From Candidatus Zixiibacteriota bacterium (GTDB lineage Bacteria; Zixibacteria; MSB-5A5; SM23-73-2): a stretch of 14,990 bases of DNA. Of the stretch, positions 7,205 through 14,990 are shown piece after piece. The translations under genes and the position numbers were made by a program. A model generated the notes under the pieces. The model saw nothing but the letters and a program-made list of their open reading frames with translations, made no database searches and had not been told where the DNA came from. Every line of letters starts with the position of its first letter. Within the stretch, counting starts at the first letter, position 1. The stretch spans positions 1-14,990 of the forward strand of contig JAUWYR010000052.1 in assembly GCA_030615745.1 (NCBI GenBank), given 5' to 3'.

Positions 7205-8779
7205 TTATCTTTTAGGTCTTAAAGTGGCTATAGGGATGATCATCTCCTCCAGGGAGATGCCTCCATGCTGGAAGCTATTACGATATTCTCTCTGATATTG
7301 GCTAAATTTAGTCGGGTAGACGAAATAAAAATCCTCTTTGGCTATTATGTATGTTGTCCCCATGCTGTAAAGAGGAAGTTTATATTCTTTTGGATCTTTA
7401 ATAAATAAAGCCTCCTTAGGATTACAACCTAAATTATCCCCATATTTATATCTTAGATTAGTCGAGGTATCTTTTTTTCCATAGGCGACGGTCCCTTTGA
7501 TCCCTAAAATACTTCCGTGGTCTGTGGTCAAAACCACCACACAATCCTGGGTAGATAGATATTTTAATATCTCGAACAAGGAGGAGTGTAAAAACCAGGA
7601 TTTCATCAATGACCTGAAAGCAGACTCATCCGGGGTTATCTCCTGCAAAATCTCAGACTCTGATCTACCATGAGCCAAAAAGTCTAAGAAGTTATAAACT
7701 ATGGAAAACAAAGGGGTGTTTCGGTAAGTGGAGATTTTTTTAGCTAAATTCTCTCCTTCAGAAGCACTCAAAATCTTTACATATTTCGGCTCAGACTTAA
7801 AAGATAATCCCAATCTTTTAAGCTGAAAATCCAGAAGTTGGTGCTCATATCTGTTTCTTGAAAGATCATCTTTTGTGCCCGTCTTCCACAACTCAGGATA
7901 TTTCACTTCAAGCTCAGAAGGAAAAAACCCGGAGAAAATAGCGTTTCGTGAATAAGGAGTGGCTGTTGGCAAAATGGAATAATAATATTCCCTTTTTATA
8001 TCGAAATATTCATTTAAAACTGGTTCAACAGAAAGCCATTGATCCAATCTCATGCAATCTAAAACAATGAAAAAAACCTTTTCTCCTGCAACTAAAAGTG
8101 GGAAAAGATATTTTTTAACTATATCACGAGATAGGACAGGTGGGTCAACACCTTGAAGCCATAAAGTGTAGTTTTTCTCTACGAATTTACCGAACTCTGA
8201 ATCGCACTCCTTTTTCTGTGCCTTATGAGTGGTTAAAAGATCTGAATCCCTTAAGGTCTCAAGCTCCAGATCCCATTCTGACAAAACCCGGTGGACTTCC
8301 ACCCAATCCCTGAAATTTGTAGAAGAACCCAAAAGAACATTTATCCGATTGAAATCCTCGACATATCTTTTCGAAAGATGATCTTCTCTAATCTTTTTTG
8401 CATCTAAGATTTTCTTAATGGTAGAAAGTATCTGAGATGGATTTACCGGCTTGGTCAAATAATCGTCAATCTTTTTTCCGATTGCCTGATCCATAAGGTC
8501 TTCCTCTTCTGATTTGGTAACCATTATCACCGGGAGATGGGGACTTTTCTCCTTAAGCTCCTCAAGAGTAGTAAGACCATCTTTTCCTGGCATCATCTCA
8601 TCTAAAAGGACTAAATCGAAATATCTTTTCTCCACCAATCTAACAGCGTCATCGCCATTAGACACGGGAAAAACCTCATAACCTTTTTCCTCAAGAAAAA
8701 TAATATGGGATTTCAGCTGACCGATCTCATCATCCACCCATAAAATTCTTTTTGGTTTTTCTTTTTTCGAGGAAAACAA
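7205..8779 (-). CDS. porX: PorX-like response regulator with PglZ (alkaline phosphatase superfamily) domain
   Basis: Residues of about 10-125 are a CheY-like receiver: acidic pair Asp16/Asp17, phospho-acceptor Asp60 in LVLLDEMMPG, Thr88 and Lys110 in LTKP. A helical linker (about 130-225) leads to a PglZ-type domain. There FFIVLDCMRLDQW (Asp241), PTATPYSRNA (candidate nucleophile Thr272 or Thr274), NFLDFLAHGR, TTDHGS (Asp420/His421) and QHGGISLEEMIIP (His505) supply the expected metal ligands. This is the architecture of PorX, which regulates type IX secretion in Bacteroidota and has metal-dependent phosphodiesterase activity on oligonucleotides. Length (524) also fits. The start is TTG 8779, just before the receiver; no ATG suits. 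The neighbouring histidine kinase, 65 bases upstream, is the probable partner. The family is clear; a role in secretion here is inferred. Confidence 0.88.
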   Translation of the reverse strand: MFSSKKEKPKRILWVDDEIGQLKSHIIFLEEKGYEVFPVSNGDDAVRLVEKRYFDLVLLDEMMPGKDGLTTLEELKEKSPHLPVIMVTKSEEEDLMDQAIGKKIDDYLTKPVNPSQILSTIKKILDAKKIREDHLSKRYVEDFNRINVLLGSSTNFRDWVEVHRVLSEWDLELETLRDSDLLTTHKAQKKECDSEFGKFVEKNYTLWLQGVDPPVLSRDIVKKYLFPLLVAGEKVFFIVLDCMRLDQWLSVEPVLNEYFDIKREYYYSILPTATPYSRNAIFSGFFPSELEVKYPELWKTGTKDDLSRNRYEHQLLDFQLKRLGLSFKSEPKYVKILSASEGENLAKKISTYRNTPLFSIVYNFLDFLAHGRSESEILQEITPDESAFRSLMKSWFLHSSLFEILKYLSTQDCVVVLTTDHGSILGIKGTVAYGKKDTSTNLRYKYGDNLGCNPKEALFIKDPKEYKLPLYSMGTTYIIAKEDFYFVYPTKFSQYQREYRNSFQHGGISLEEMIIPIATLRPKR

Positions 8780-8844: not shown

Positions 8845-10071
8845 TCATCCTTTCACTTTTATTGGAAGAACCACAAAAAAGGTGGTTTTAACATTCGGAA
8901 TACTTTTACCCAGATATATCAACCCAGAGTGGTAATCCTCAACAATCCTTTTAGCTAAGGAGAGTCCTAATCCCCAACCTCTTTTTTTAGTGGTATATCC
9001 TGGGGTAAATATCTTTTTCTGCTCCTTCGGTAAAATTCCTTTACCATTATCTGTAACCTCAATTATAACTTTCTTTTTACCTTTATCCATCTTAGTGTTC
9101 ACCTCAATAATCCCAAACTTAGGTTCAACAGCTTCCAATGAATTCTTTAATAGATTCTCCAAAACCCAGCTTAAAAGCTCTGAGTTAACCTCAACAGGTT
9201 CTAACTCCCCCAAATTTTCTTTGATCACAACCCCCAATCCATTATGGGGAAGTCTAACTTTGAAATAATTGACCACATCTGAGACCACAGAATTCAAATC
9301 GACTGACCTGAGTTCAGGAACACTCCCTATCTGACTAAAGCGGTGGGCAATCTTCTCTAAGTTTTCCACATCTTTTTCCATCTTCTCAATAGTTTCCTTA
9401 GTCTGGGGGTCTGATTTTGACTTCAAAATCTCCAACCATCCTAAAATCGAGGAGATAGGAGTTCCCAATTGATGAGCTGTCTCCTTTGACATACCCACCC
9501 AGATAGAATGCTGTTCTGCTTTTTTTATATTGCTGAAGGTTATAAATCCAATAAGACCTAAGATAACTAAAACCCCGATTTCAATCAAAGGTAAAAACCT
9601 GAGTTGGCGAATCAATCTTGGATCAGCATAATGAAGATATAATGCCTGTTTTTTATCCTCACCATAAAAAATAGGAATAGGCTCTTTCTCTTTATCCATC
9701 TGTTGAACTCTTTTTTTTAACCTCTCTTTGGATTTATAAGTAGTGTCATCCCAGGCGATACCAACTTCCCGCCAGGCTTGAGGATTCCCCTCAAAATCTG
9801 TTACAACGATAGGAAAACGACTTTTTTGAATCACCTCCTCAAAAATCAAATTGACCTCTTCACCTGTTGTCGATTCCATGGCAACCAACTGCCATAACCT
9901 CGCATAGGCGGTTACAACTTGAGTTGAGTTTTTCTTTAACCCTCCGATCACCTCCTGAGTATAATAAAAGAAAACTAAAGCAACAATCACAACCCCCAGA
10001 ACGAGGCTTACCTTGAAGAAAAGGGGATATTCAGTATAACCTCTCAGATATTTCTTATTAATTTGGTTCAA
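8845..10071 (-). CDS. Membrane sensor histidine kinase, probable partner of the PorX-like regulator
   Basis: An N-terminal membrane helix (about 17-37) and a second one (about 160-180) enclose an extracytoplasmic sensor region of some 120 residues that I do not recognise. The dimerisation helix has His200 in MSKETAHQLGTPISS. The ATPase domain has the N box ENLLKNSLEA (305-314), G1 DNGKGI (341-346), an F-box region PGYTTKKRG and G2 GWGLGLSLAKRI. All catalytic elements look intact, so it should autophosphorylate and pass phosphate to the regulator 65 bases downstream. It starts with TTG 10071, chosen because AAAGGAG lies just five bases upstream. The TTG overlaps the TGA of a 26-codon ORF. No receiver or HAMP domain is evident. 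Confidence 0.9.
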   Translation of the reverse strand: MNQINKKYLRGYTEYPLFFKVSLVLGVVIVALVFFYYTQEVIGGLKKNSTQVVTAYARLWQLVAMESTTGEEVNLIFEEVIQKSRFPIVVTDFEGNPQAWREVGIAWDDTTYKSKERLKKRVQQMDKEKEPIPIFYGEDKKQALYLHYADPRLIRQLRFLPLIEIGVLVILGLIGFITFSNIKKAEQHSIWVGMSKETAHQLGTPISSILGWLEILKSKSDPQTKETIEKMEKDVENLEKIAHRFSQIGSVPELRSVDLNSVVSDVVNYFKVRLPHNGLGVVIKENLGELEPVEVNSELLSWVLENLLKNSLEAVEPKFGIIEVNTKMDKGKKKVIIEVTDNGKGILPKEQKKIFTPGYTTKKRGWGLGLSLAKRIVEDYHSGLIYLGKSIPNVKTTFFVVLPIKVKG

Positions 10072-10148
10072 CTTTTCTCCTTTAATCCATCTAAGTAGGT
10101 CTTTTGATTATCTGGATCTGGATTCCCATTTAAAATTGTTATTTTCAT
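10068..10148 (-). pseudogene. Probable remnant: N-terminus of a flavodoxin-fold NAD(P)H oxidoreductase
   Basis: A 26-codon ORF begins MKITILNGNPDPDNQK, which closely resembles the first strand and phosphate loop of NAD(P)H-dependent FMN-binding oxidoreductases (pattern MK.TILNGNP). It stops at once with TGA, overlapping the TTG start of the kinase. The normal protein would be about 170-200 residues, so only the very start survives. It could be a gene fragment left by rearrangement or, less likely, a leader peptide that couples translation of the kinase through its internal AAAGGAG. Confidence 0.4.
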
Positions 10149-10152
10149 AAGC

Positions 10153-10224
10153 CTACTTCCCTTGACCTTTTTTTGTTAAAGCTTCAAAAGATTCATACCA
10201 TTTAAATGTTTCTACTGTTGTCAT
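10153..10224 (-). CDS. Small ORF of 23 codons with strong ribosome site
   Basis: ATG 10224 is preceded by GGAGGT seven bases upstream, one of the best ribosome sites in the window, and the ORF ends with TAG four bases before the next small ORF. The product begins MTTVETFKWYESFEALTKK. I do not recognise it. The good start signal on such a short frame suggests either a genuine leader or small protein for the kinase operon, or the beginning of a gene whose remainder is lost. Confidence 0.3.
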   Translation of the reverse strand: MTTVETFKWYESFEALTKKGQGK

Positions 10225-10239
10225 TTTTACTACCTCCAT

Positions 10240-10251
10240 ATTATAATTATA
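10240..10251 (-). promoter_or_regulatory. Tandem -10-like boxes upstream of the kinase operon
   Basis: Two adjacent perfect TATAAT hexamers lie on the minus strand at 10240-10245 and 10246-10251, just upstream of the GGAGGT of the 23-codon ORF. I find no good -35 box at the right distance. If used from the upstream hexamer, the transcript would begin almost at the ribosome site. Plausible but unproven start of the kinase-porX-tsaE-tsaB-rimI-accD transcript. Confidence 0.3.
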
Positions 10252-10295
10252 TTTGTCCTCTTACATCTTACTATTTTTGACGGGATCGCAATTTC

Positions 10296-10377
10296 CGATA
10301 ACATTTTCGGGCTTTGTGAAGTTCCGCTGAAGGCGGAATTTGGGTCAACGAAGCGAACCGCATACACCGTGTTATAC
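10296..10377 (-). repeat. Degenerate attC-like element after the antiporter gene
   Basis: On the minus strand the element opens with GTATAAC (10377-10371, resembling the RYYYAAC box) and closes with GTTATCG (10302-10296, a poor match to GTTRRRY). Inside, a 6-bp hairpin TTCCGC/GCGGAA with loop CTTCA and short outer pairings (CGG/CCG, GCTT/AAGC) are visible. The first nine bases, GCGTATAAC, are the perfect reverse complement of GTTATACGC at the other end of the antiporter segment (plus-strand 12260-12268). This is what an integron cassette should show: its own two half-sites match. The distal half is degenerate, so the call rests mainly on that pairing. Confidence 0.4.
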
Positions 10378-10501
10378 GCAGTGCGACATTCTGGATATGT
10401 CTGCTCAAGATGAAAACTCGTGCTAATCATTGTCTGAAATATTGGATTTACCATCTTAATTGTCTTCTGGATTATGGAATAACCCCGGCAACTTTGGCAA
10501 T

Positions 10502-12208
10502 TTATCTGGACCCAAGCATATCGTAGTCCTCTGATCTTATTTCATCGATATATTTCTCGATCTCATCTCTGGGAACAAGGTATTTTTGCAAAACTCGTGC
10601 AAAGATCTCTACAGAGGTCTCAAATTCCTCGGGAATAACTTCATCCGCCCCTAATCCATGCAAGGTTTTCACTTCTGGGAGAAAGCGAGTTCGCACTATA
10701 ACATAAACCCCGGGGTTGAGTTTCCGAACAAGCTCAACAATCCTGCGAGTTGCCGCGGGGTCAGAGATGGCCACTACCACAACCTTCGCATCTTTGATGG
10801 CTGCGCGCCCAAGTACCGCTTCATGGGTTGCGTCGCCATAATAAATTGGTTCACCTTTTGCTTTTTCTTCCCTCACCGTCTCAGGATTCATTTCAATAAT
10901 ACAGTAGGGAATACCCCTTACCGTGGCAGCCCGCGCCAGATTTCTTCCGTTAAATCCAAATCCAATGATGACAAGGTGATCTTTTTTGCCCGCCAACTTC
11001 ACCTCTTGCACAGGAGAGAAACCCGTTCTTAACCTTCCCGGCATTGGCAACTGCAAGACAAAATCTGCGGTCCGAGGCGCAAAAGCTATAATCATTGGTG
11101 TTAATGCCATGGTCAGCACAGAGACAGCCAGAAACATCTGATAAATATCCCCGGCAAGTAAACCATATTCAATACCGGTTTTAGAGAGAATGAAAGAAAA
11201 TTCACCGACCTGACTGAGTGCCAGACCAACCAAAACTGCCGTGCGAATTGGAAATCCCAATAAAGTGGTTGCAAAGCCAGCAAGGATGGTCTTTAATGCC
11301 AGAACGCCTAAAGCAATCAGCACAATGAGACCCGGGTGCTGGAATAGAAAACCGACGTCCAGAAGCATTCCAATGGAGATAAAAAAGAAACTCATAGAGA
11401 TATCGTGGAGCGGCAAAATATTGCCAAGTGCTTGATGAGCGTATTCAGATTCGGATATGATCAGTCCTGCTAAAAATGCACCCAATGCCAGGGACAGTCC
11501 TGCACTGGAGAACAGCCACGCAAAGCCAAAACATATTATGACAACACTCAGTAGAAATAGTTCACGGTTGCGTGTTCTTGCAATTTGATACAATACCTGT
11601 GGCACAATCCATTTAGAACTAACAATCACAAAAGCGATGATTCCTACTCCTTTGGTCAGAAGAATAAGAGGGGATTCGCCAAAATTGGCTGTCGCCCCAA
11701 CCAGTAGAGGCGTGAACAGCATCATGGGAACAATAATGACATCCTGGTAAATCAAGATGCCAAGAGTTGTACTTCCATGAGGACTATCAACCTCAGCTCT
11801 TTCCTGGATGACTTTGAGCACAATTGCCGTGCTACTGAGCGATATAAGAAATCCTAAAAAAATCGATTCACTAAAGGACTGACCGAGTTTCATAGCTATG
11901 ACAAAAGCAGCTAAAAAAGTTAGCCACATCTGAAGCGATCCGCCCATCAAGATCGATTTCTTGATTCGCAACAGGCTTTTAAGTGAGAACTCCATTCCAA
12001 TAGTAAAAAGCAACAACACAACCCCGATTTCAGCTAAGATTTCAACTTCGTGAACCGCTTTTATCAAGCCCAGTCCGTGAGGCCCTGCCAACATCCCGGT
12101 CAAGAAAAATCCCACAATTGTGGGTATTCGAAGGTGACTGCATACGAAGAGCACTACAATGGACAGCCCAAGTATGATGACAATGTCAGTTAGTAAAGGT
12201 ATTCCCAT
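10502..12208 (-). CDS. KefB/YbaL-type monovalent cation:proton antiporter with NAD-binding RCK domain
   Basis: An inner-membrane CPA2 antiporter, likely exchanging K+ or Na+ for H+. Residues 1-385 form about 12-13 membrane helices, including SSTAIVLKV (125-133) and ILIYQDV with the conserved Gln155-Asp156 pair of KefB/KefC-type transporters. A cytoplasmic RCK_N (TrkA-N) Rossmann domain follows at about 410-530: GFGFNGRN (416-423), an acidic residue ending strand two in IIEMNPE, and YYGDAT. There is no RCK_C domain. Its 568 residues match YbaL-like proteins rather than longer KefB forms, so it appears complete. Start ATG 12208 has AGGAG 11 bases upstream. By eye it is more GC-rich than the tsa genes, and it is flanked by inverted core sites, both suggesting acquisition as a mobile cassette. 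The transported ion is uncertain. Confidence 0.9.
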   Translation of the reverse strand: MGIPLLTDIVIILGLSIVVLFVCSHLRIPTIVGFFLTGMLAGPHGLGLIKAVHEVEILAEIGVVLLLFTIGMEFSLKSLLRIKKSILMGGSLQMWLTFLAAFVIAMKLGQSFSESIFLGFLISLSSTAIVLKVIQERAEVDSPHGSTTLGILIYQDVIIVPMMLFTPLLVGATANFGESPLILLTKGVGIIAFVIVSSKWIVPQVLYQIARTRNRELFLLSVVIICFGFAWLFSSAGLSLALGAFLAGLIISESEYAHQALGNILPLHDISMSFFFISIGMLLDVGFLFQHPGLIVLIALGVLALKTILAGFATTLLGFPIRTAVLVGLALSQVGEFSFILSKTGIEYGLLAGDIYQMFLAVSVLTMALTPMIIAFAPRTADFVLQLPMPGRLRTGFSPVQEVKLAGKKDHLVIIGFGFNGRNLARAATVRGIPYCIIEMNPETVREEKAKGEPIYYGDATHEAVLGRAAIKDAKVVVVAISDPAATRRIVELVRKLNPGVYVIVRTRFLPEVKTLHGLGADEVIPEEFETSVEIFARVLQKYLVPRDEIEKYIDEIRSEDYDMLGSR

Positions 12209-12261
12209 ATCCTAATATGCTCCTGATTTCATTATTCATTGACTATATTCCCCTGCATAGC

Positions 12262-12350
12262 GTATAACGGCCCGAGCGTATCTGAAAGTCCAGCAAAGCT
12301 ATATTTGGGCATAGTGCCGAAGGCACGAAGCCAGATACGCTCTGTTAGGC
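12262..12350 (-). repeat. attC-like recombination site between the HD gene and the antiporter gene
   Basis: On the minus strand it opens with GCCTAAC (12350-12344, a perfect RYYYAAC box) and closes with GTTATAC (12268-12262, one base off GTTRRRY). Just inside, GAGCGTATCTG (plus 12274-12284) and CAGATACGCTC (12332-12342) form a perfect 11-bp stem, and GTGCC-GAA-GGCAC (12314-12326) makes an inner hairpin. The 89-bp length, position 43 bases after the HD gene stop, and orientation toward the gene's 3' end all fit an integron attC (59-base element). The spacers between boxes are unequal (1 and 5 bases), which is atypical. No integrase gene is in the window. Confidence 0.55.
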
Positions 12351-12392
12351 GACCCGAAGGGCAGCGAAGCCGAGTTACCAGCACGACAATTT

Positions 12393-14285
12393 TTAATTTT
12401 CAGCATAATTCCCTATTTCTCTTGGTTTTGTTAGACTTTTCTCCGTTATTATTGCCTCTATTCGATCAGGAGGAACGATGTCCTCACGCGGATTATAATT
12501 TTCATAAGTCTCTATTTCAGGTTCAAACGATACGTCTGCAGTAAGCCATTGATTCCCCCGTTGAAGTTTTGGATCTCTGTGATAATCGCCTATTTTCAAT
12601 GAATCTGCAATTACAAGCACACGAACACCGTAAATTTTTGCCATATCAGCTATTGCTAAATGGCCTAAAGTGTGAGCCACATGACCGCTGCGATCGATTC
12701 CATTAGCCCCAAACAATACCTTTTTTATGTCTCCTCCTGAAAAGAGATTTGATGCACAGGAATCTGCAATGTAACTAATATTTTCTATTCCCGTTCTCTC
12801 TTTAAGTTCTTTGAGGTATTTAATTCCATCGCAGTAAATAAGTCGGTTGTTATACCGATACCTATTCTTTGTTACGCCTTGACAAATATACACTTTTAAT
12901 GACTTTTTCATAGTATCATGTTTTTCAACAAGATATTTTAGACACTCAACAATCGAACTACTATACCCATATAAAAGAATTGCAAAACCATCTGCAAGAA
13001 CCGGATAAGCCATTTCTGGCAGCTTCTCCATCGCATCTGTTTTCTTTTCCTGCCACGCACTGATAGCTTTTTGAATTTTTTCGAAAACTTCATTGCCGTC
13101 TTCTTCAGTCAACTTATTTGAATTAGAAATATTTTTGTCTAACAAATCTTTGACCTTCCACAAGAAAACATGACAGGGGCGATCTTTTACAATAGCGTCT
13201 AAAACGTTTGTTTTGTAATCGTTCAGAAGACTGATACTTCCACACTTATCTGTTGGATCAAGAATTAAAGTGATTTGCCTCAGAACAATATCAATAACTG
13301 ATGTTGCGTTAGGGCTCATTGTCGGGTCAAATAATTCAATATCGGTCAGCAATTCTTCGAGTTCTTTTACATCCTTTGGATCCATGTTTTTATATTCTCT
13401 GTATTTGCACTCCACAGTTAGATAAACAGGTAAAGACCCTTTTATTAAAATCTCTCTTACAGCATCAACTTCATCTTGAAGTTCTATCTCTATCGTACGC
13501 CTTAAAGGTTCCATCCTTTTATCCGGATATTGTGGAGGTTTTTTAAGTACAATACTTATTTTAAACATATCTCTAATGGGAGTTATCTCCCAAGCATACT
13601 TGGACTTAAGCCAATGAATCTTTGAAATTACATCTAACCCAAGCGCCATATAGGTCTTAAATTTTCTATCATCTGCTCTATGTGGTATATGGAGCGCATC
13701 TGCAAGTCTCAAGCATACAGTTAATAAAGGAATATGTACAGGGATGCTTGATATATCCCATTCCCAATTTTCTTTTGCAAACGCTTGTAATTCCTTATAT
13801 TTTTTGTACCTATGACGCATGCATATCTCAATCAATGCATTTGCCTCATCATCTGTTAACCGCAGAATGTCTTTTTTTTCTCTAATGTATTTTGTTGTTC
13901 TTTCTTCATGCTCTTCTCTTACTTTTTTGTCCCATTTAACTGTTTCTTCTTTTCCCCGTGGTTCTTTATCTTCAGGGAAAAGCTTGGGGATCATGCCAAT
14001 ATCATGTAACCATACCGAGACAAGAAGTAAAAATAGATCTTCTGACGATAACTTTTCATTCAATTCTTCTGGTGGAAAGAGTTTGTACAATATCTCTTCG
14101 ACCCTTATATTGTGGGTATGGTCATGCGGGGTGTATGGATACGGATGGCGTACTCTTTCCCATTTTGATGCAACATGCTCGCATATATTGTTTAGTCTTT
14201 TTATGTTCCTCTGTAGTTTTGGTATGTTGTCTCTTCTCCTCTTTATTTCTTCAAATGTAATTTGTATATCTTCTGGTATGTTCAT
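12393..14285 (-). CDS. HD-domain protein fused to an eIF2B/MtnA-like (IF-2B) domain
   Basis: Residues of about 45-210 form an HD phosphohydrolase-type domain: His54-Asp55-His56 with His58, WLHDIGMI (His94-Asp95), His158 and Asp196 in RLADALHI. It resembles the HD-CE type described in prokaryotic conflict-system proteins. Residues 230-300 look beta-rich, then comes a helical linker (300-425). Residues of about 430-565 match the IF-2B fold shared by eIF2B subunits, methylthioribose-1-phosphate isomerase and ribose-1,5-bisphosphate isomerase: ILLYGYSSSIVECL, YIADSCASNLF, VLFGANGIDRSGHV, LAIADMAKIYGVRVLVIADS. The catalytic Cys and Asp of the isomerases appear to be replaced (YGYSS; GANGI for GADAI), so this half may bind a sugar phosphate or nucleotide rather than isomerise it. 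ATG 14285 follows a strong AGGAGGAGG (14291-14299). Boundaries look cassette-like. Function is unknown; nucleotide or phosphosugar sensing with phosphohydrolase output is a guess. Confidence 0.75.
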   Translation of the reverse strand: MNIPEDIQITFEEIKRRRDNIPKLQRNIKRLNNICEHVASKWERVRHPYPYTPHDHTHNIRVEEILYKLFPPEELNEKLSSEDLFLLLVSVWLHDIGMIPKLFPEDKEPRGKEETVKWDKKVREEHEERTTKYIREKKDILRLTDDEANALIEICMRHRYKKYKELQAFAKENWEWDISSIPVHIPLLTVCLRLADALHIPHRADDRKFKTYMALGLDVISKIHWLKSKYAWEITPIRDMFKISIVLKKPPQYPDKRMEPLRRTIEIELQDEVDAVREILIKGSLPVYLTVECKYREYKNMDPKDVKELEELLTDIELFDPTMSPNATSVIDIVLRQITLILDPTDKCGSISLLNDYKTNVLDAIVKDRPCHVFLWKVKDLLDKNISNSNKLTEEDGNEVFEKIQKAISAWQEKKTDAMEKLPEMAYPVLADGFAILLYGYSSSIVECLKYLVEKHDTMKKSLKVYICQGVTKNRYRYNNRLIYCDGIKYLKELKERTGIENISYIADSCASNLFSGGDIKKVLFGANGIDRSGHVAHTLGHLAIADMAKIYGVRVLVIADSLKIGDYHRDPKLQRGNQWLTADVSFEPEIETYENYNPREDIVPPDRIEAIITEKSLTKPREIGNYAEN

Positions 14286-14333
14286 TTTTACCTCCTCCTA
14301 ACATTTGGCATTTAAATTTTGTTTTTTATAAGG

Positions 14334-14355
14334 CGTGCTGGTAATTTCGCCCAAC
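14334..14355 (-). repeat. Candidate 5' cassette boundary with terminal inverted repeat
   Basis: On the minus strand GTTGGGC (14355-14349) is a perfect GTTRRRY core 64 bases before the HD gene start. With flanking bases it matches the reverse complement of the box at the gene's other end (TCGCCCAAC at 14347-14355 against GTTAGGCGA at 12344-12352, eight of nine). Next to it, plus-strand CGTGCTGGTAA (14334-14344) is the exact reverse complement of TTACCAGCACG (12375-12385), just past the gene's stop. Two nested inverted repeats therefore bracket the gene. Confidence 0.45.
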
Positions 14356-14725
14356 TCGTTCATATCCGAAATAGGCTCGGATATCCTTCCCTGGCCGGGC
14401 AGGCTGATATAGAAGTATAGGCAAACTATGTTCGGACATATCTCTTGATCGTTGCCGACACCCTTCTGGCTGACCTATCCTTCAGCCCTGTTTCCTCCTC
14501 CTTTCCTTGACTCTAATTTAATCTCCCAAAGGAGTTTCGCAAGACCTTTTCTACCCCCCAACACTAACAAATCTATGCGAAGCATCTTGATGATTGATGC
14601 ATACACACTTTTTCAAAAAATTCTCCTGTTAGCTCAGACAGCCATTTATGTCAAGCAGTCCTGCCTCTGGGGGACATGCTTGACCTACAAATCTCTTGCC
14701 CCTTGACCCCCGACCCTTGACCCTT
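14356..14725. other. Non-coding gap downstream of serS with hairpins
   Basis: No believable gene is present. ATATCCGA (14362-14369) pairs with TCGGATAT (14377-14384), adjacent to the cassette boundary. GTCAAGCA (14650-14657) pairs with TGCTTGAC (14677-14684), with an inner GTCC/GGAC stem, forming a strong hairpin downstream of serS; it lacks a T-tract, so terminator function is uncertain. The short unit CCCTTGACCC recurs around 14698-14725, right after the serS stop. A T-run on the minus strand near 14610-14622 follows only a weak stem. Confidence 0.35.
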
Positions 14726-14990
14726 CTAATTTATCTCCTCAATCCCATCCATATAGGGCTTTAGAACCTCAGGAACTTTAACTGTTCCCTTTTTTGTCTG
14801 ATAGTTTTCCAAAATACAGATCATAGTTCTTGGCAGAGCCACTCCTGAGCCATTTAAGGTATGTAAAAATCGGAGCTTATTTTCTTTTTTTGTTCTATAT
14901 TTGATTCCGATTCTTCTTGCTTGAAAATCCTCGTAGTTACTGCAGGAGGAAACCTCAAGATATTTTCCCAATCCAGAAGCCCAGGTTTCA
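14726..14990 (-). CDS. serS: Serine--tRNA ligase, C-terminal 88 residues (5' part outside window)
   Basis: The frame is open to the right edge and ends with TAG at 14726-14728. It begins [18 protein letters not shown] and continues [11 protein letters not shown], then [20 protein letters not shown], the class II motif 3 of seryl-tRNA synthetase with its ATP-binding Arg, and ends [12 protein letters not shown]. These are the SerS C-terminal motifs in normal order and spacing. The enzyme charges tRNA-Ser in the cytoplasm. It runs in the same direction as the other genes but is separated from them by the cassette-like segment. Confidence 0.95.

Follow-up and report, generated by a model that had tools for sequence, protein, structure and literature searches.

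A probable integron-type array of two gene cassettes without an integrase between serS and a histidine kinase gene in an uncultured order

In known integrons, the bottom strand folds and is cut at G^TT by a tyrosine recombinase, and attI, which lies beside intI, is the insertion target, with L and R boxes and direct repeats. Clusters of attC sites without an integron integrase are termed CALINs (IntegronFinder 2.0, PMC9024848); in Xanthomonas, integrase-less clusters occur at several chromosomal loci (PMC12444791), and the integrons of archaea and uncultured lineages have attC types common to an order and many CALINs (PMC9668308). The window considered here (the whole stretch of DNA that was analysed, 14,990 bases) is the entire contig C47 of a draft genome of 2.28 Mb in 74 contigs, 98.6% complete. 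Like a CALIN, it has at least two tandem attC-type sites, cassette cargo and no nearby integrase; it differs from one in that its sites are missed by a class-1 attC model, in that an attI-like hairpin stands at the head of the one- or two-cassette arrays, and in that its cassettes measure about 2 kb. With class 1 cassettes (attC of aadA, dfrA1, qac and others) it has in common the GTTRRRY/RYYYAAC cores, a folded stem, a variable loop and complementary own ends. However, own-end complementarity covers about 12 nt in class 1 and 22 nt in the variant family to which the window belongs, where the A.C mismatch at position 11 is fixed, and the spacers measure about 5/5 in the former and 1/4-5 in the latter. 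Archaeal attC sites fold as bacterial ones do (PMC9668308), in which they too differ from the variant family.

We consider it very probable (about 0.86) that two integron-type cassettes form an array without an integrase here, i.e. a CALIN, between serS and a kinase gene, and that a tyrosine recombinase placed them; that the cassettes are of integron type is well supported. A preliminary description of this DNA had proposed just such an integrase-less cassette pair, and its interpretation is supported by the sites that a lineage-specific model recovers and by empty alleles in relatives, with the qualifications that the sites are non-canonical and that the second of them is damaged.

The serS-kinase interval and its alleles

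The region 10296-14355 (minus strand) comprises two cassettes, one of about 2.0 kb with an HD-CE/IF-2B gene and one of about 1.9 kb with a KefC-like antiporter gene, and both cargo genes, serS and the histidine kinase gene all lie on the minus strand (Table 1). The best NCBIfam match of the antiporter is KefC, under the cut-off. Within its HD part, the first cargo gene has a stretch similar to the C-terminal region of UG24, a defence reverse transcriptase (E 2e-6), and beside the kinase, at 7205-8779, there is a response-regulator receiver fused to a PglZ domain. An Rfam scan of the window gave no relevant match.

Table 1. Positions of features in the window, in order along the minus strand
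Feature	Position	Strand	Basis
serS 3' end, native left flank	14726..14989	-	PF00587
attI-like left-end hairpin (candidate), ATATCCGA-loop-TCGGATAT, then GAACGA, abutting first cassette	14356..14386	-	
HD cassette 5' end, core GTTGGGC and 22-nt own-end repeat	14334..14355	-	20/22 complementary to 3' end, insert omitted
Cargo 1, HD-CE/IF-2B fusion gene, 630 aa	12393..14285	-	PF24391 E 9e-26, PF01008 E 5e-18
HD cassette 3' end, own-end repeat split by 20-nt insert (12353-12372)	12344..12385	-	gapped match
attC1: R'' GCCTAAC, 1-nt spacer, 11-bp stem, loop, 5-nt spacer, R' GTTATAC	12262..12350	-	model R3
Cargo 2, KefC-like monovalent cation:proton antiporter with TrkA_N, 568 aa	10502..12208	-	PF00999 E 4e-58, PF02254 E 9e-24
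attC2: core boxes present, inner stem arms CGGTGTATGCG/ACAAAGCCCG unpaired	10296..10377	-	model R3
Third-cassette start (GTTATCGGAAATTGC) and decayed remnant reaching kinase	10072..10302	-	sequence reading
Histidine kinase, native right flank	8845..10071	-	PF02518/PF00512

The serS gene is 65-91% identical to that of eight relatives and each time lies upstream of the kinase gene, which is present in 36 of 39 genomes. An alignment of this interval in relatives, proposed in the preliminary description as a search for an empty site, bore the idea out, with serS and the kinase gene adjacent in seven relatives, where the gap is roughly 30-450 bases and no left hairpin is found. In the only same-genus genome (G001) the gap is 2.9 kb and holds other cargo, namely a Fic gene and another ORF, together with one attC of the variant family that ends in GTTATACGC, the core of the R' of attC1 in the window. 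The cargo genes themselves are unevenly distributed: among 146 genomes the HD gene is matched only once more, at 28% identity, and it is absent from 144 of 145 relatives, and the antiporter is patchy, being found in 76 of 146 genomes and missing from G001.

A variant family of attC sites

The first members of the site family came from integrase-like places in the genome and its relatives: contig C8 contributed two sites and G008, a genome of the same order, several. The common layout is RYYYAAC, 1 nt, an 11-bp stem, a variable loop in which CCCAAAT is usually present, the second stem arm, 4-5 nt and GTTRRRY, such that the central spacers are asymmetric (1 and 4-5 nt); AAC..GTT is almost invariant, and some sites have a 2-nt bulge past the stem. 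Both attC1 and attC2 carry the attC boxes (R'' RYYYAAC, R' GTTRRRY) with one to two departures each, reading GCCTAAC/GTTATAC and GTATAAC/GTTATCG respectively. In the family and in attC1 the two halves of the site pair around a variable loop, but not in attC2. The stem arms of attC1 (GAGCGTATCTG/CAGATACGCTC) pair over 11 bp and an inner hairpin is present too; the fold has a z-score of -2.9 with none of 200 shuffles as good, so the stem and inner hairpin that had been described for this middle element are real. attC2, which folds weakly (11 of 200 shuffles as good), is of the same site family as attC1, but damaged or chimeric.

Three covariance models were used to delimit the family. Model R1, from six sites with attC1 of the window included, brought up one new site, on C70 (E 1.6e-5), with weaker matches on C46, C26, C52 and C40. 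Model R3, from 15 sites with no window sequence, is only partly independent of the window, because its rows were collected with R1, of whose six seeds attC1 was one, and its seeds were originally chosen under the integron hypothesis; with that reservation, it recovers attC1 at 52.3 bits (E 9e-11) and attC2 at 34.9 bits (E 1.2e-6) in a search of the window, and at E 1.4e-8 and E 1.9e-4 respectively genome-wide. On other contigs the same genome-wide search finds sites on C46, C8 (two), C70, C52, C40 and C26, with C35 weak, so that the further sites, for which the preliminary description had proposed a search, lie on at least six other contigs. Matches at E 1e-4 or better occur in ten other genomes of the phylum set, seven of them from the same order. 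Across an alignment of 22 sites, which was fitted to the structure and therefore biases both scores upward, 83.6% of cells in the two helices are paired, as against 67.7% after shuffling, and the covariation score is 0.424, as against 0.172 when shuffled and 0.06-0.10, no higher than 0.098, when slid. A search of the genome for close DNA copies of attC1 returned just short chance matches, and the family is a structural one; a pattern scan of viral contigs and a phage/plasmid BLAST for the site gave no match.

Model R2, from eight class-1 attC sites, detects, in L071, a class-1 cassette site outside its training set (E 9e-10); within this genome it finds a single canonical attC, on contig C54 (E 1e-4), and it has no match in the window. 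The genome thus carries a canonical attC near an IntI remnant as well as the variant family, and the window sites fall outside the attC family when this is modelled on class-1 sites. The attC model search that had been suggested earlier consequently has a divided outcome, in that the class-1 model misses the window and the lineage model built without it finds both sites. The site family is a variant of the integron attC type. Elsewhere in the order, contig C141 of G010 (L126 2826-2906 and 3603-3689) has two attC-type sites with the right core CGATAGG replacing GTTRRRY and the left core CGATAAC.

Left ends and the source of the recombinase

A hairpin precedes the first cassette at seven loci: the window, C8, C70, contig C89 of G001, G012, G005 and G008, in the last of which it adjoins an integrase gene. 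Its form is often like ATAAACGAA-loop-TTCGGTTAT, followed by 3-6 nt and then the core; the left end in G003 is similar to this type, and that on C52 is not. We read the left-end hairpin as a candidate attI-like element.

The window has no integrase gene. Within the 98.6%-complete genome no full IntI was found, with no gene reaching the IntI cut-off (TIGR02249, 265 bits), and contig gaps may hide one; an intI beside attI and cassettes, as in a complete integron, is found neither in the window nor in the genome. The search for intI proposed in the preliminary description therefore yielded C-terminal remnants and no full gene. One fragment, on C1 (L016 15490-15594), is 83% identical over 35 aa to the IntI of G010, and another, on C54 (L017 14152-14250), shows 70% identity over 33 aa; both adjoin palindromic TATACAGACTGTATAA elements and a GTTRGRCG core. 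The two loci appear to be decayed canonical integrons, with intI directed toward attI. A third, more distant IntI C-terminal fragment lies on C8, shortly upstream of the attI-like hairpin of the array there; the order at this locus (L018 9753-9949) is tRNA-Pro(ggg), a short integrase C-terminal piece, the attI-like hairpin and two cassettes. As the genome has no full integrase and only IntI remnants, the array is CALIN-like, with at least two attC sites (by model R3) and no integrase in the cluster.

Fuller integrase genes occur in the same order. In G010, part of an IntI scores 362 bits and exceeds the cut-off; its gene seems to be frameshifted, and the 3' end of this gene points toward an attI-like region and the beginning of a cassette at the edge of the contig, an arrangement that resembles archaeal and uncultured-lineage integrons in having attI downstream of intI (PMC9668308). 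The near-complete IntI on contig C318 of G010 (L048 9051-10066) has its apparent frameshift after the N-terminal third, with mraZ/ftsI-like genes on the contig. The integrase gene of G008, which is interrupted by an N run, adjoins a hairpin and at least four variant-family cassettes; both of its halves match TIGR02249 under 265 bits, and the N run covers the region of the IntI-specific domain. Searched for across the class at E 1e-30, this integrase was found in G008 alone. The array loci of eight more relatives have no adjoining integrase, and no variant-family sites lie near the integrase-like genes of G118 and G137.

These left ends and integrases bear on how the genes came to lie here. An ordinary IntI could have placed them at chromosomal attG-type secondary sites, with the left hairpin incidental; cassettes can enter such attG sites (Loot et al. 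2024, as cited in PMC12444791 and PMC11023631), the sites are scattered in this genome, and attG-integrated cassettes, as far as those citations describe them, resemble the window in having no intI near. We nevertheless think this unlikely. A similar left-end hairpin at seven loci, most of those here, would be unexpected from random secondary sites and sets the arrays apart from attG-integrated cassettes as those citations portray them, and integrase remnants or genes adjoin the C8 and G008 arrays. It is because of the left hairpin that array decay or attI-type insertion is ranked above random attG insertion. Movement of the cassettes by housekeeping XerC/XerD is a very improbable alternative: the only complete tyrosine recombinases found in the genome are two genes, both Xer-like on reading their sequences, and no full intI was found, but the activity is more simply traced to the IntI remnants here and to the IntI-type genes of the order.

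Cassette ends, array assembly and implications

The four nine-base ends listed in the preliminary description were located as given, all on the minus strand (GTTGGGCGA at 14347-14355, TCGCCTAAC at 12344-12352, GTTATACGC at 12260-12268 and GCGTATAAC at 10371-10379), with GTTGGGCGA/TCGCCTAAC complementary in 8/9 positions and GTTATACGC/GCGTATAAC in 9/9. Though correct over nine bases, that description stopped early, as the HD ends match in 20 of 22 positions once the insert is omitted; the ends of the antiporter cassette agree at 9/9 bases of the core and, over the first 14 positions, at 12. Because of the 20-nt insert, the HD 5' boundary is not significant in an ungapped own-end scan (54 of 200 shuffles as good), and three other features fix its position: the left hairpin, agreement with the 5' consensus, and the match with the gap allowed.

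That own ends match better than neighbours' ends, as had been claimed for the two genes, holds in a comparison of the two ends of each of 17 related variant cassettes. Own ends agree at 3.65 of 4 variable core positions as against 2.16 with other cassettes' ends, and at positions 13-22 at 6.35 of 10 as against 2.69 (0/20000 permutations in each case); past position 22 own ends agree no better than background. Where the start is fixed by the preceding attC, independently of the end match, as in seven cassettes, positions 13-22 give 6.29 versus 2.45 (12/20000). Position 11 is A at the 5' end and G at the 3' end on the reverse complement in 15 of the 17, i.e. an A.C mismatch in the hairpin. The own-end rule also holds in nine class-1 cassettes, to about position 12 only (3.44 versus 2.43 at positions 13-22). 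Literature searches turned up no report of 22-nt ends, which is weak evidence of absence.

Inverted matched ends of about 22 nt flanking single genes could alternatively be the terminal repeats of a non-autonomous transposon or MITE family, but positions 13-22 are cassette-specific and not family-wide, the ends carry GTTRRRY/RYYYAAC cores and a folded site with covariation, and the cassettes abut head to tail with one core in common, which leaves this reading scarcely plausible. Chance hairpins or terminator-like repeats by two ordinary genes are barely conceivable given the model matches, the covariation, the own-end permutation test and the empty-site alleles, even if attC2 alone barely beats its shuffles, and both readings were rejected on these grounds.

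Under the favoured reading of an integron-type array, each cassette would begin with the T that follows the G of its GTTRRRY core and end with the G of its own attC. The recombinase may have been supplied formerly by an integron that is now a remnant in this genome, or in trans; it would have cut the folded site at G^TT, with circular cassettes placed serially behind the attI-like left end, probably in that order. Within the array, the outer stem (positions 12-22) would span two different cassettes and could not pair; in the excised circle it could. As array neighbours mismatch at positions 12-22, the outer stem would pair in the excised circle alone, so the circle would fold more readily than the array site, favouring re-integration. 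At the other end of the array, a deletion probably fused two sites into attC2, leaving a dead fusion with the cassette between them lost, since the left arm of attC2 is nearly that of the first C8 site and its right arm is from another stem. The sequence beyond attC2 starts like a third cassette, in agreement with the 5' consensus GTTRRRYGAAATNGC of the variant cassette family, and decays into the kinase flank. More tentatively, and with some doubt, the family might represent a separate integron lineage. Its cassettes would each be bounded by a 22-nt terminal inverted repeat in which the A.C mismatch is fixed, and the full hairpin would form in the excised circle alone, which would bias the system toward integration; its short, scattered arrays would each begin with an attI-like hairpin and might be served by a G008-type integrase.

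The first cassette on C8 (L018 10099-10875) encodes a CAP12/PCTIR TIR protein that matches the candidate defence family PDC-S35 (E 1e-78). Candidate defence genes, for a TIR protein of this PDC-S35 type and for a Fic protein, are among the cargo of the cassette family. The locus extends integron-type gene capture to an uncultured order, and, as the variant layout is missed by a class-1 attC model, such cassettes may be undercounted. The 22-nt ends mark cassette boundaries without reference to the gene and, being cassette-specific, offer a testable idea for how a free circle could be told from an array.
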